From the NCBI GenBank assembly GCA_002173095.1, contig NHBK01000009.1, forward strand, positions 124,001 to 188,000: DNA of 64,000 nt, written 5' to 3'. Positions 48,848 to 53,277 of the stretch are shown piece by piece. The stretch comes from Hyphomonadaceae bacterium TMED5 (lineage in GTDB: Bacteria; Pseudomonadota; Alphaproteobacteria; Caulobacterales; Hyphomonadaceae). Both the position numbers and the translations under genes were made by a program. Numbering within the stretch: the first letter of the stretch is position 1; each line of letters starts with the position of its first letter. Under the pieces are notes generated by a model. The model saw only the letters and a program-made list of their open reading frames with translations, had not been told where the DNA came from and ran no database searches.

Positions 48848-49144
48848 ATGGGCTATCCGATCTATTGGCTGATCCACAATGTGATCTTCATGTACCAGAT
48901 CGTGGTGTTTATCTATCTGATCACCCGCATTCTTATCCAGTTCGGCGTGGTGAACAGCTATAACCAGTTCGTTCAGTTCATTCTGCGGTTTGGCGCGGCC
49001 CTTGTTGAGCCGGTTCTTGACCCGATCCGGCGTTTCATTCCGGCGATTAATGGCATCGACCTTTCGCCACTTGTTCTTCTCCTGGGACTCGGATTTATCG
49101 ACATTGTGGCGGCTCAATTGCTGCTTTCTCCGGCTCTGAACTGA
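48848..49144 (+). CDS. YggT-family membrane protein
   Basis: 98 residues. Two YGGT-type hydrophobic helices (~10-33 and 70-92) flank the conserved [35 protein letters not shown]. The family is linked to osmotic/cell-envelope maintenance and often sits near pyrroline-5-carboxylate reductase or folD; exact function unknown. ATG 48848 is chosen for family length; the frame opens earlier. FolD starts 11 bases later. Confidence 0.92.
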
Positions 49145-49155
49145 TAGGAATTCAA

Positions 49156-50034
49156 ATGGGCACGCTCATTGACGGCAAAGTGATCGCAGCCAGCATTCGC
49201 GAAGATGTTGGCAAGGAAGTAACCGCGATCAAAGCAGAGCACGGTTTCACACCGGGCCTCGCCGTTGTGCTTGTCGGTGAAGACCCAGCCTCTCAAATCT
49301 ATGTCCGCAATAAGGGCAAGATGACGGAAGAAGCGGGCATGAATTCTTTCACGCACCGTCTGCCGGAAGATGCCACGCAGGAGCAGGTCGAGGATTTACT
49401 CGAGACCCTCAATAATGACGATGCCGTTGACGGCATTCTGCTTCAGCTGCCTTTGCCGAAACATCTAAACGAGGCGAGCGCAATTGAGCGCATCTCACCA
49501 AACAAGGATGTCGATGGCCTGACAGAGGCCTCTGCAGGCCGTCTAGTTCTTGGCAAAAAAGGCATCCGCCCGTGCACGCCTGCTGGCTGTGTGATTCTTG
49601 CCAAGTCTGCGCTGGGCGATGATCTGTCCGGTAAAAGTGTTGTCGTGATTGGCCGGTCCATTCTGGTCGGTAAGCCTGCCGCGCTTTTATTCCTTGAGCA
49701 GAATTGCACGGTGACAATTGCTCACTCCCGCACGAAAGATCTCGCAGATGTGTGCCGTCAGGCCGACATTCTGGTGGCAGCCGTTGGTCGCCCGAAAATG
49801 GTGCCTGCCGAATGGGTGAAGCCAGGTGCATGCGTGATTGATGTCGGCATCAACCGCATTCCAGCCCCTGAAATGGGCGAAGGTAAAACCCGCGTTGTAG
49901 GTGATGTGGATTTTGATGCCTGTAAGGATGTTGCAGGTCAGATTACGCCTGTTCCGGGCAGTGTGGGCCCGATGACGATTGCAGGCCTTCTGGTAAATAC
50001 GCTGACCGCTGCAAAACTGCGCCGCGGGCTATGA
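49156..50034 (+). CDS. folD: Methylenetetrahydrofolate dehydrogenase/cyclohydrolase
   Basis: 292 residues. [19 protein letters not shown] with catalytic Lys, [33 protein letters not shown] (NADP site), and [15 protein letters not shown] at the C terminus. It converts 5,10-methylene-THF through methenyl-THF to 10-formyl-THF. AGGA is six bases upstream. Probably co-transcribed with yggT. Confidence 0.98.
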
Positions 50035-50043
50035 TTCTCAATT

Positions 50044-50071
50044 TCGCTCATTCCTGCGGATGCAGGAATCT
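50044..50071. repeat. Left inverted-repeat palindrome of the GIY-YIG cassette
   Basis: TCGCTCATTCCTGCGGATGCAGGAATCT is itself a hairpin (ATTCCTGC/GCAGGAAT). It matches the reverse complement of 50406-50433 at about 25 of 28 positions. Together they bracket the GIY-YIG gene. Confidence 0.75.
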
Positions 50072-50389
50072 CGAAGAGACGTAGGAGAAGGTGAAATCGG
50101 CGAAACGGTTTTCTGCGTTTACATGATGGCCAACCATCGAAACACCGTGCTGTATATTGGCATGACCGATGATATAAATCGTCGAGCTTACGAACACAGA
50201 AATCATCTGATCAAAGGTTTTACCCATCGATATAACTGTGAAAAGCTTGTTTGGTTTGAAGGGCATTCCAGCCGGGTTTCGGCTTTTACACGCGAGCGAC
50301 AGTTGAAGAAGTGGAAGCGCCAGTGGAAAGAGAGCTTGATAGAGCAAGTCAATCCGGAATGGCGCGATTTGGCGGAAACATTGTTGTAA
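50060..50389 (+). CDS. GIY-YIG nuclease-domain protein, start uncertain
   Basis: 109 residues if begun at ATG 50060. The domain reads VFCVYMMANHRNTVLYIGMTDDINRRAYEHRN (GIY-like VYM, YIG, catalytic Arg), then KLVWFEG and a basic AFTRERQLKKWKRQWKESLIEQVNPEW. This is the small stand-alone GIY-YIG (UvrC/YhbQ-like) family, frequent in alphaproteobacterial genomes. The ATG lies inside the left palindrome and lacks a ribosome site. AGGAG sits eight bases before an ATC at 50096, so the true start codon may have mutated or be non-ATG. Nuclease activity on DNA is inferred from the family. Confidence 0.82.
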   Translation: MQESRRDVGEGEIGETVFCVYMMANHRNTVLYIGMTDDINRRAYEHRNHLIKGFTHRYNCEKLVWFEGHSSRVSAFTRERQLKKWKRQWKESLIEQVNPEWRDLAETLL

Positions 50390-50405
50390 AGGCGCTCTTT
50401 GTGCC

Positions 50406-50433
50406 AGATCCCTGCATGCGCAGGGATGAGCGA
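50406..50433. repeat. Right inverted-repeat palindrome of the GIY-YIG cassette
   Basis: AGATCCCTGCATGCGCAGGGATGAGCGA is a hairpin (ATCCCTGC/GCAGGGAT). It is the inverted near-copy of 50044-50071. It lies between the GIY-YIG and HNH genes. Confidence 0.75.
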
Positions 50434-50443
50434 GGCCGGTAAA

Positions 50444-50734
50444 ATGTCCCAACCCTTCAAGCCTGCCGAATCCGAAGCGTTTAAAACGCTTTGGGTAGCG
50501 CAGAATGGGCTGTGTGCACTATGCGGTGAACCCATGCCCAAGCACCGGTTCGAAATGGCACATCGAACGCTCTGGCAGAAGAAACGTCCCACCTTTGATC
50601 ACATTATTCCCCGGTCAAAACAGGGTGTGGACGATGTTTCCAATCTTCAACTTACGCATGCGGATTGCAATAAACGTAAAGGTTCCAGTGTGTTAGGTGA
50701 TAAGCGAAGCCGGACGCGGAAATTCCCCAAATAA
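50444..50734 (+). CDS. HNH endonuclease-like protein
   Basis: 96 residues. A CxxC pair (C24, C27) precedes DHIIPRSKQGVDDVSNLQLTHADCNKRKG, the HNH beta-beta-alpha metal motif (D52-H53, N67, H72, C75-N76-K77). Such small HNH proteins are widespread; some act in phage packaging or mobile elements, others have no known role. The start at 50444 follows a GAGG site; the longer frame runs into the repeat. It lies just outside the right repeat of the GIY-YIG cassette. Confidence 0.85.
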   Translation: MSQPFKPAESEAFKTLWVAQNGLCALCGEPMPKHRFEMAHRTLWQKKRPTFDHIIPRSKQGVDDVSNLQLTHADCNKRKGSSVLGDKRSRTRKFPK

Positions 50735-50775
50735 TGGAATAAACCTTGCACCGTTTCCGCTGAGAAATCGGGAGA

Positions 50776-51894
50776 ATGGATATGACCGCCGCACGCCAAC
50801 GCTTTGACTCACTGACAGGACTACGTTTCCTGCTCGCTGTATGGATCGCTTACTTTCACGTAGGCCATATGTATGACCATGACGGATTTGGCGCTCTGCC
50901 GTATCTGGAACTGGGTGTTGCCCGCGTTGATGTGTTCTTCGTGCTTTCAGGCTTCGTTCTGACCCATATTTACTGGTCAAACCGTCAACGGCCCTTCGCA
51001 TTTGGCGAGTTTATGGTGGCGCGGATTGCACGCATCTACCCGCTCTATCTTCTCTCTCTCGGTATGATCCTCGGTTATCTGGTGCTTGGTGCATTGATTG
51101 GCCGTGAAGGCGTTTTTGACGGCTATACTCCAGCTGGTCTGGTGGCAAACCTCACCATGACGCAATCTGTTGGCTTTCCGGGTGTGACGAGCTGGAACTT
51201 CCCAGCCTGGGCGATCAGCGCTGAGTTCGCAGGCTATCTGCTGTTTCCATTTTTCATCTGGGTTGCGACCCGCATGTCAAAATACCGTGTGCTGTTCTTC
51301 GGCCTGTGTATTCTGAACGTCTTCGTTGTCGACCAGCTCCACGGCTATTTCCTCGGTCGCGAGCTTTCCAGCTCTACGATCGCATGGGGCGCGCTTCGTG
51401 GTGCTGTTGTGATGCTGGCGGGTGTTGGGGCCCGTGTTGCTTTTGAAGACTTCAATGTCAGCTCTTTCCGTGCAGGTATCTACGCGGTGCTTGGCGCTGT
51501 CTGCGCGCTTCTGGCAGCCGTGAACCATATTGGTACGGTGTTCGTCGCACTGGGTGGATCGCTTATGATTATGGGGCTTGCTCGCATTGATGCGCATGGC
51601 AAATCCACGACGCTGTCCCGCCCAAGCATGTGTGTCCTTGGCAACTGGTCTTATGCAATCTTCATCCTGCACGTGCCGATCTACATCATCATGAAGAATG
51701 GTCTGGATATTCTGGGCATTGGTCTGGAAGTGAATGCACTGACGTCACTGGCATTCACTTTGGTAGTGGTCGCCGTCTCCTGGCCGGTTCACCGCCTCAT
51801 TGAAGAGCCGTGCCGCAAAGTGATCCGCAATGGATTTGAGGGCCGCCGTCGGCAGAAGGTTGCCCCGCAGGATGCGAGTGCGCCTTCTGCCTGA
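50776..51894 (+). CDS. Acyltransferase family 3 membrane protein (OatA/NodX type)
   Basis: 372 residues with about ten hydrophobic helices. The N-terminal acyltransferase_3 signature FDSLTGLRFLLAVWIAYFHVGH is clear. RVDVFFVLSGFVLTHIYW and FMVARIARIYPLYLLSL follow, then a C-terminal PVHRLIEEPCRK. It transfers an acyl group to a surface polysaccharide, lipid A or other acceptor; the acceptor is unknown. Confidence 0.94.
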   Translation: MDMTAARQRFDSLTGLRFLLAVWIAYFHVGHMYDHDGFGALPYLELGVARVDVFFVLSGFVLTHIYWSNRQRPFAFGEFMVARIARIYPLYLLSLGMILGYLVLGALIGREGVFDGYTPAGLVANLTMTQSVGFPGVTSWNFPAWAISAEFAGYLLFPFFIWVATRMSKYRVLFFGLCILNVFVVDQLHGYFLGRELSSSTIAWGALRGAVVMLAGVGARVAFEDFNVSSFRAGIYAVLGAVCALLAAVNHIGTVFVALGGSLMIMGLARIDAHGKSTTLSRPSMCVLGNWSYAIFILHVPIYIIMKNGLDILGIGLEVNALTSLAFTLVVVAVSWPVHRLIEEPCRKVIRNGFEGRRRQKVAPQDASAPSA

Positions 51895-51900
51895 TCGGCT

Positions 51901-53277
51901 CTAGCTTTCAATCGGCATTTGCCAGCTTCCACCAATCGCCGCGTAGAGATTGATCACAGAGATCAGTTGATCGCGGCGATTTTCCAATACGCTCTGAACC
52001 GCAGACTGATAGGTCTGCTGCGCGTTCAGAAGACTAGTCAGGTCATCTGCGCCCACCCGATAGCGAAGCTCTGAAATCTCAAGCGCGCGTGCGGAGGCAT
52101 CTTCTGCAATTTGCAGATCTGGCGCCTGCGCGGTGGCCGAGTTTAGCCCGGAAAGGCTCGTATCCACATCCTGCAAGGCAGAAAGAATGGCCGCACGATA
52201 GCTTGCCAGAGCCGCATCGGCACGCGCCTCTGCCGTTTCCAGTGAGGCATCTAACTGGCCGCCCTGAAAGATCGGGATATTAAGTCCCGCAGACAGGGAA
52301 GCGACCGGGTCCAGACCGCTATTGAGGGCGGTGGAAAGACCCGCCCCGAGATCAAAGCTCGGCAGATAGGCGGCTTCTGCAATGGCCACACTGATATGGG
52401 CAGATTGCAGGTCAACTTCAGAGCTCAGAAGGTCAGGACGACGCGTGAGCAACTCACTCGGCAGACCGGCATCAACGCTCGGCAGTGCAACGCTCATCAG
52501 GTCCGCTTCAGGGACTGAGAAGCCTTGTGGAGCTTCACCCAGAAGAATGGCGAGGCTCGCCTCATAGCTTTCGATCTGGTCCTGAATAGCCGGAATACGT
52601 GCACGCGCAGTAGCGAGGCTCGATTGCTGGCTTGCCAGATCGTAACCGGATACATCACCGGCATTATAGCGCGCTTCGACGATCTGATAGATGCGCTCGC
52701 TAATAGTCAGATTGTCTTTGGCCACCTGCAACGAATAACGCGTCGTCAGAAGGTTGAAGTAGTTGGATGCGACATCGGATTGAACGCTGAGTTCAATCGT
52801 GCGCTGGTCCAATTGTGTACCGAGAAGGCTCAGTCGGCTCACATCGACAGACCGCTGATTGCTTGAGAACAAATCGACCTCATAAGAGGCTGAAAGCCTC
52901 GCTGAGGATGAAATGTCATCAAGACCGGAATCTGAAGATGAAGACGCAGAGGCGCTTCCGCTCAAAGACGGCAGAAGCGACGCACCAGCGCTCGTCACAG
53001 CTGCGCGTGCTGAGCGCAGATTGGCAAGCCCGGTTTCAATCGAGGTGTTATTAGCCAGAGCCCGTTCGATGAGGTCATTCAGCACCGGGTCGTTGAACGT
53101 TACCCACCAATGTGTGTCGGCGCTTCGGATTTCGGCCAGTTCAGCGAGCTCAGCCGAATGGTCGTAAGCCTCTGGAATGGTGACGGGCAGCGGGTCGGTC
53201 TGCACCGTAGGTGTCAGGCTCGCACAGCCAGAAGCCATGATGAGCGTTGAAAGCGAAACAAGTGTCAGTCGGCGCAT
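51901..53277 (-). CDS. Outer-membrane efflux lipoprotein (NodT/OprM, TolC-like)
   Basis: 458 residues. Lipobox MASGC (Cys18), then two outer-membrane efflux protein repeats: long coiled-coil helices with DTHWWVTFNDPVLNDLIERALANN, NYFNLLTTRYSLQVAKDNL, PSFDLGAGLSTAL and SALQDVDTSLSGLNSA. It forms the outer-membrane channel of a tripartite pump. It is the last gene of the macA-macB-nodT operon, four bases after macB. Confidence 0.96.
   Translation of the reverse strand: MRRLTLVSLSTLIMASGCASLTPTVQTDPLPVTIPEAYDHSAELAELAEIRSADTHWWVTFNDPVLNDLIERALANNTSIETGLANLRSARAAVTSAGASLLPSLSGSASASSSSDSGLDDISSSARLSASYEVDLFSSNQRSVDVSRLSLLGTQLDQRTIELSVQSDVASNYFNLLTTRYSLQVAKDNLTISERIYQIVEARYNAGDVSGYDLASQQSSLATARARIPAIQDQIESYEASLAILLGEAPQGFSVPEADLMSVALPSVDAGLPSELLTRRPDLLSSEVDLQSAHISVAIAEAAYLPSFDLGAGLSTALNSGLDPVASLSAGLNIPIFQGGQLDASLETAEARADAALASYRAAILSALQDVDTSLSGLNSATAQAPDLQIAEDASARALEISELRYRVGADDLTSLLNAQQTYQSAVQSVLENRRDQLISVINLYAAIGGSWQMPIES

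Follow-up and report, generated by a model that had tools for sequence, protein, structure and literature searches.

Background

According to the passages of a 2013 survey that describe them, the CGTC REPs are palindromic repeats reported in five phyla, among them dRS3 of Neisseria, which corresponds to the CGTC-1 REPs, and two repeat families of Rickettsia (Di Nocera 2013, PMC3733652). The same passages give them a stem of 8-9 bp with AT at its end, a loop of 4-5 nt, an unpaired CGTC tag, for which TGTC or CCTC is also seen, and a CCA-type tail (PMC3733652). In those sections of the survey the GTAG-class REPs are tied to RAYTs, a dedicated enzyme of the CGTC REPs was not found, and no transposase gene was flanked by CGTC repeats, a few fortuitous associations aside; the term GIY appears 0 times in its main text (PMC3733652). 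A literature search for GIY-YIG proteins linked to REP or dRS3 elements gave none among the matches listed. A family of site-specific, single-strand-specific nucleases with cognate repeats, named Ssn, has reportedly been described from Neisseria in Nat Commun in 2025, and is said to modulate natural transformation there.

Here we analyse a stretch of 64,000 nt, henceforth the window, from the 3.55-Mb genome of Hyphomonadaceae bacterium TMED5 (G000:C16:124001-188000), in which two REP-like palindromes enclose one intact ORF for a GIY-YIG nuclease.

A GIY-YIG nuclease gene between inverted palindromes

The left palindrome (50044-50071, forward strand) consists of a CGCTC tag, an 8-bp stem closing on a GGAT loop (ATTCCTGC-GGAT-GCAGGAAT) and a CTC tail. 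The right one (50406-50433, reverse strand) is its inverted copy, with 25 of the 28 nucleotides identical after reverse-complementing one of the two, and likewise has an 8-bp stem and a 4-nt loop (ATCCCTGC-ATGC-GCAGGGAT); here the tail, CCAG, comes before the GAGCG tag. Both tags are directed away from the gene, and as single-stranded DNA the two palindromes are predicted to fold with -8.1 and -8.6 kcal/mol (z -3.0 and -2.1). The top inverted match between the flanks of the gene scores 22, as against a maximum of 16.5 in Markov-shuffled sequence, where 0 of 2000 shuffles equal it. The identity and the shuffles bear out an earlier sequence-only reading, by which 28-base inverted hairpins matching at about 25 of 28 positions frame the GIY-YIG gene and nothing else; the palindrome pattern fits these two sites and no others in the window. 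A lone hairpin of such size is not rare, the window holding 3 perfect hairpins (stem of at least 8, loop of 4) against 0-3 per shuffle over ten shuffles; what stands out is that two matching ones, in inverted orientation, enclose a single gene. The right palindrome is not followed by a T-run, and positions 49000-52000 matched nothing in Rfam.

The enclosed ORF (50060-50389, forward strand) encodes 109 aa when counted from the ATG in the left palindrome and belongs to the GIY-YIG superfamily by virtue of its PF01541 domain (E 5e-16) and its conserved residues of the catalytic type. All residues that are invariant in an alignment of 13 sequences are present, including Y21, Y32, G34, R42, H46, E79 and N98; we take these Y, G, R, H, E and N residues to be the catalytic ones of the superfamily. 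The predicted structure is a GIY-YIG domain (pLDDT 89.7) whose matches in the PDB are UPF0213 (E 8e-4, the sole one below E 0.001), Slx1 (E 0.015) and the GIY-YIG domain of UvrC (E 0.06), and a sequence search of the PDB gave no significant relative (best E 0.51). PADLOC left the protein unmatched. As had been noticed from the sequence, the in-frame ATG (50060) falls within the left palindrome, and a possible ribosome site, AGGAG (50082-50098, forward strand), points 8 nt downstream to an in-frame ATC at 50096. The assignment of the start codon is tentative, and in both orthologues (G002 and G006) the ATG lies outside the palindrome. The dN/dS of 0.12 between those orthologues, a comparison for which the window gene itself is too distant, with saturated synonymous sites, indicates that the gene is under purifying selection.

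Comparison with described systems

Set beside the CGTC REPs as the survey's passages portray them, the window palindromes share the 8-bp stem, the 4-nt loop, AT at the stem end and an unpaired tag, and the genome shares inverted dimers, of which there are three of 73 bp here, and intragenic copies (PMC3733652). The tag differs from that portrayal, being GCTC instead of CGTC; the tails read CCAG on the right and CTC on the left. As in REP/REPIN-RAYT systems, an enzyme gene lies between palindromes whose short inverted dimers occur elsewhere in the genome. Those systems, in contrast, have a Y1 tyrosine transposase where the window unit has a GIY-YIG nuclease, the REPs of RAYTs (REPtrons) bear a GTAG tag where the window has GCTC, and copies in the window genome are few, with 8 clear sites. 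Free-standing GIY-YIG homing endonucleases share with our protein the catalytic domain and a possible copying by cut and repair; unlike them, the window unit is edged by palindromes of a repeat family, and not by an intron or a single cognate allele, and the match to a homing-endonuclease family is weak (phrog_7168, E 4e-4).

The closest parallel is provided by a gonococcal protein with 57% identity to the window nuclease over 86 residues, whose gene is set among dRS3 repeats, with 16 dRS3 sites in the surrounding 2.3 kb. We presume this protein to be Ssn. Like Ssn, the window protein is a small GIY-YIG protein whose gene is associated with a cognate repeat; in contrast to Ssn, the gene here forms a single unit with the lone palindrome on either side of it, a few REPIN-like dimers occur elsewhere, and our comparison, which reads sequence alone, records presence and absence of the gene at palindromes. 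We consider it most probable that the window nuclease is of the Ssn type and that the palindromes are its REPs. Two of the Neisseria gonorrhoeae records encountered, NZ_CP119140.1 (locus L271) and NZ_CP119142.1, are chromosome-sized (~2.17 Mb) and filed as plasmids.

Recurrence of the bracketed arrangement

We compared 123 GIY-YIG loci, comprising the 17 matches in the window's genus, the best match of each of 26 further genomes of the family, and 80 loci from named genomes, the latter being the best 80 of at least 513 confirmed in a scan that covered Proteobacteria, Nitrospirota, Bacteroidota, Omnitrophota, candidate phyla and others. A locus was counted as bracketed when the match of its upstream 300 bp to its inverted downstream 300 bp beat all 60 shuffles; three loci with short flanks were excluded, leaving 120. 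Loci from several phyla passed, 91 of the 120 in all (genus 11/17, family 19/26, named genomes 61/77), as against 0 of 29 folD control loci, and 90 of 117 passed once the three loci duplicated in core and flanks were removed (L139/L161, L146/L165, L147/L175). The 29 that did not pass include 6 of the 17 from the genus, one of these being the window locus itself (L058), whose upstream stretch was cut inside the palindrome and which passes with the full flank. Both matched stretches hold a hairpin in 77 of the 91 bracketed loci, and matched hairpin pairs were present at 82 of all 123 GIY-YIG loci versus 0 of 28 folD loci. Many loci share similar palindromes, which is why only 75 of 120 pass when the bar is raised to the 95th percentile of flanks mispaired across other GIY-YIG loci, and why random pairings of upstream and downstream flanks yield matched hairpins in 99 of 400 cases.

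Under a reading rule that itself demands TC at the tag end, the tags among related loci were CGTC (36), GCTC (28), TGTC (25) and others (14), and a CCA tail was read 54 times; the stem, loop and tail of these palindromes resemble those of the CGTC REPs. The tags point outward on both sides in 26 of the 49 loci where both are readable; loci of the L070-L073 group have one side without a palindrome partner. By the bracket counts, the GIY-YIG gene and the palindrome are a real, recurrent pair.

We also considered whether the palindromes are chance or structural hairpins, such as terminators, between which a small gene happens to lie. In the window, lone hairpins of such dimensions do arise by chance; the pair score that no shuffle equalled, the bracketing of GIY-YIG loci and not of folD controls, and the lack of a T-run after the right palindrome are all at odds with such an origin, and we have rejected it as having a negligible chance of being correct.

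Palindromes and nucleases elsewhere in the genome

If the element were abundant in the genome apart from GIY-YIG genes, the link between the two would be doubtful; a genome-wide search for further copies found it to be rare, with 9 sites at no more than 1 mismatch and 0 for the reversed control. These sites are the two at the window gene, another six paired into three 73-bp inverted dimers, one at C19 and two at C21, and one imperfect single. The 73-bp dimers have an outward tag and an inward tail, the same as the gene cassette; the inverted dimer of genome G046 measures 85 bp. Both C21 dimers lie in frame inside one 344-aa ORF that belongs to a multi-copy family, and a comparison aimed at clean target-site edges showed both dimers in G006 and unrelated sequence at that place in G001 and G002. 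Dimers of 73 bp within ORFs were seen at L022:1814-2848 (G000:C21:283313-284347) and L033:975-1047; the in-frame dimers of C21 add peptides such as PAQAGIS...PDSRLRGNER, which to us are reminiscent of the palindromic elements of Rickettsia.

The genome has four PF01541 loci, namely the window gene, two more small genes and one long ORF that we have taken for UvrC. The small gene at C16:284107 (L065) has an imperfect inverted pair of palindromes of another type, and to the left of that at C21:61257 (L070) stand two palindromes, with none seen to the right. Since these two further small GIY-YIG genes adjoin palindromes of different types, three nuclease-palindrome systems may coexist in the source genome.

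Correspondence of palindrome and nuclease types

Palindrome similarity and protein similarity were correlated in a Mantel test (rho 0.27, p <=0.001; 82 loci, 3290 pairs, with pairs of homologous flanks left out). Within the window's genus, with loci clustered on protein identity alone, two flanks resemble each other more when they come from separate genomes but one cluster than when they share a genome and differ in cluster (p 0.0009 to 0.017 for 3 to 6 clusters). Palindrome type thus tends, in these comparisons, to follow the nuclease clade rather than the genome. In the 11 genomes whose GIY-YIG proteins come closest to that of the window (at least 63% identity), the stem at the gene is Y-type in seven and G-type in four, and in 11 of 11 the gene-side type is the commoner of the two when counted genome-wide, a count that includes the gene-side copies and draws on related genomes that are not independent; G034 has a second nuclease copy beside a G-type palindrome. 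On a wider scale, at least 5 palindromes were present in 24 of 58 genomes with a strong GIY-YIG match (E <=1e-15) versus 4 of 43 without one, and 11 of the 58 had neither of the two palindrome types tested. Palindromes can also occur without a strong GIY-YIG match, as the exceptions G013, G033, G081 and G092 illustrate.

This correspondence bears on the possibility that the palindromes are moved by a RAYT or some other transposase and that the GIY-YIG gene between two of them is a passenger or an opportunist. The tie of GTAG-class REPs to RAYTs, as given in the survey's passages, offers a precedent; against this, those passages record no transposase flanked by CGTC repeats beyond the few fortuitous cases (PMC3733652), and a passenger gene is not expected to track palindrome type. 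We accordingly regard this explanation as improbable.

Gain and loss at conserved sites

The gene is variably present at the folD-HNH site, at an oxidoreductase-gene site in a related genus, and at the fnrL-fixJ site of Sphingobium plasmids. In the window the left host neighbour, folD (49156-50034, forward strand), defines the site, and an HNH endonuclease gene (50444-50734, forward strand; PF01844) follows. As the sequence-only reading had noted, this gene begins just outside the right palindrome, which ends at 50433, its ATG being at 50444; a longer HNH frame opens with TTG at 50399. PADLOC found weak matches of the HNH protein to Cas9, PtuB and two other models, and it weakly resembles the HNH domains of Cas9, IscB and PtuB. 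In seven genomes of the genus, the folD-gene-HNH arrangement is seen in three (window, G002 and G006); folD adjoins HNH directly in G001 and G004, at a bare site with neither nuclease nor palindrome; and a lone right palindrome, intact in G003 and decayed in G005, stands between the two genes without a nuclease. Relatives thus do not always carry the nuclease gene, 2 of 7 sites being bare and 2 of 7 holding a solo palindrome. HNH follows folD in 7 of 7 members, and because the pair occurs in four of them without the nuclease, we consider HNH to be a host gene and have rejected it as a member of the cassette. In the folD tree the bare relative G001 groups with the carriers G002 and G006, and therefore either loss in G001 or two gains must be assumed; loss explains the bare site as well as gain does. 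By its distribution and its constraint, the gene at this site looks old, conserved and kept by selection rather than freshly inserted.

At the oxidoreductase site we read 28 of 30 loci, leaving out L303 and L304. Three genomes carry the gene in one orientation with Y-type palindromes (G046, G008 and G043) and three in the opposite orientation with G-type palindromes (G049, G017 and G058); G034 has part of a cassette at the edge of the stretch and G070 a single palindrome. In the other 19 loci, one of which is cut short and several of which have other neighbours, neither the gene nor a Y- or G-type palindrome was found. The loci L275-L279 and L283 show opposite cassette orientations together with different stem types, by species, at one site of this genus. 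G017 has a dimer-gene-dimer arrangement plus further repeats, and G074 has one dimer and no gene, its ends resembling those that face outward in the G017 dimer pair. The single dimer of G074 looks like what recombination between two dimers would leave.

Of the twelve records covering the Sphingobium fnrL-fixJ site we read nine, four of them filled (one frameshifted) and five unfilled; two of the unfilled sites hold a solo double-tagged palindrome (one decayed) and three do not, that of TomTYG65 being occupied by a palindrome of another type. The solo palindrome on the plasmid of Sphingobium sp. TomTYG64 (L306, ~930-970) bears a CGTC tag at either end, as a fusion of two palindromes would, and a decayed version is found in TomTYG74. 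At a Rhizobium plasmid site, 8 of 145 records cover the query and all carry the gene, so that no empty site was read; the 17 listed among the other 137 match only the neighbouring gene or the stretch beyond the nuclease gene. We further compared shared edges in five pairs of related cassettes whose surroundings differ: in L206/L223 (80% core identity) the common DNA runs solely from palindrome to palindrome, and in L173/L194 (97% core identity) it extends further, by ~90 bp to the left and 18 bp to the right. Judged from these sites, the change between filled and empty states may mostly have gone in either direction, and gene loss and gain would also fit passive recombination between repeats.

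These observations leave room for a nuclease that cuts its cognate palindrome without mobilising it, acting on incoming or exposed single-stranded DNA as Ssn reportedly does, with palindromes that regulate or mark its gene and with the changes at sites due to ordinary recombination between repeats. The gonococcal relative amidst its dRS3 sites, the single dimer of G074 with its resemblance to a product of dimer-dimer recombination, and the conservation of the gene at the old folD-HNH site all agree with this. By itself, such an explanation does not account for the layout shared by the short inverted dimers of the genome and the gene unit, nor for cassette relatives whose surroundings differ and whose edges fall at or close to the palindromes, and we hold it to be credible though on the whole doubtful.

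A proposed mechanism

The explanation that we prefer, and consider somewhat probable, is that the GIY-YIG gene and its flanking palindromes constitute one nuclease-REP unit, whose nuclease nicks its own palindrome and which spreads via repair or copying. The small nuclease would recognise palindromes of its own type and nick them, most probably where they fold as single-stranded hairpins, the preference for single strands being one that we presume by parallel with the Ssn nucleases. To our knowledge, GIY-YIG enzymes are not known to join DNA. Repair or copying after the cuts would spread short, REPIN-like inverted dimers (73 bp in this genome) and, now and then, the entire unit with its gene, and recombination between palindromes would delete the gene to leave a solo palindrome or a solo dimer. 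We infer both that the nuclease cleaves its own palindrome and that this cleavage drives the spreading or movement of the palindromes. The sequence-only reading, which saw a REP-like mobile cassette with a GIY-YIG nuclease in place of a RAYT transposase, is largely supported as an analogy with RAYT cassettes in layout: the layout, the recurrence, the dimers and the empty and solo sites speak for it. The HNH gene that it noted stands apart from the cassette.

Conclusions

Comparison of genomes documents the palindromic bracket around small GIY-YIG genes, its recurrence across phyla, the co-variation of palindrome type with nuclease similarity and with the other palindromes of a genome, and the presence and absence of the gene at palindromes. 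We propose the GIY-YIG nuclease as a good candidate for the missing enzyme of the CGTC-type palindromic repeats. More tentatively, and with somewhat less than an even prospect of its being right, we suggest that GIY-YIG proteins are the dedicated enzymes of the CGTC REP super-family at large, with one palindrome type per nuclease clade and a homing-like spread driven by the nuclease. Were this so, several such systems would coexist per genome, and their mobility would proceed via cuts in single-stranded DNA, unlike the transposition of RAYTs. As the palindromes flank the nuclease gene and co-vary with its protein, the question of the enzyme of the CGTC REPs becomes directly testable: each nuclease locus predicts its own substrate, and several nuclease-palindrome pairs per genome would give a ready natural series of nucleases that differ in specificity.
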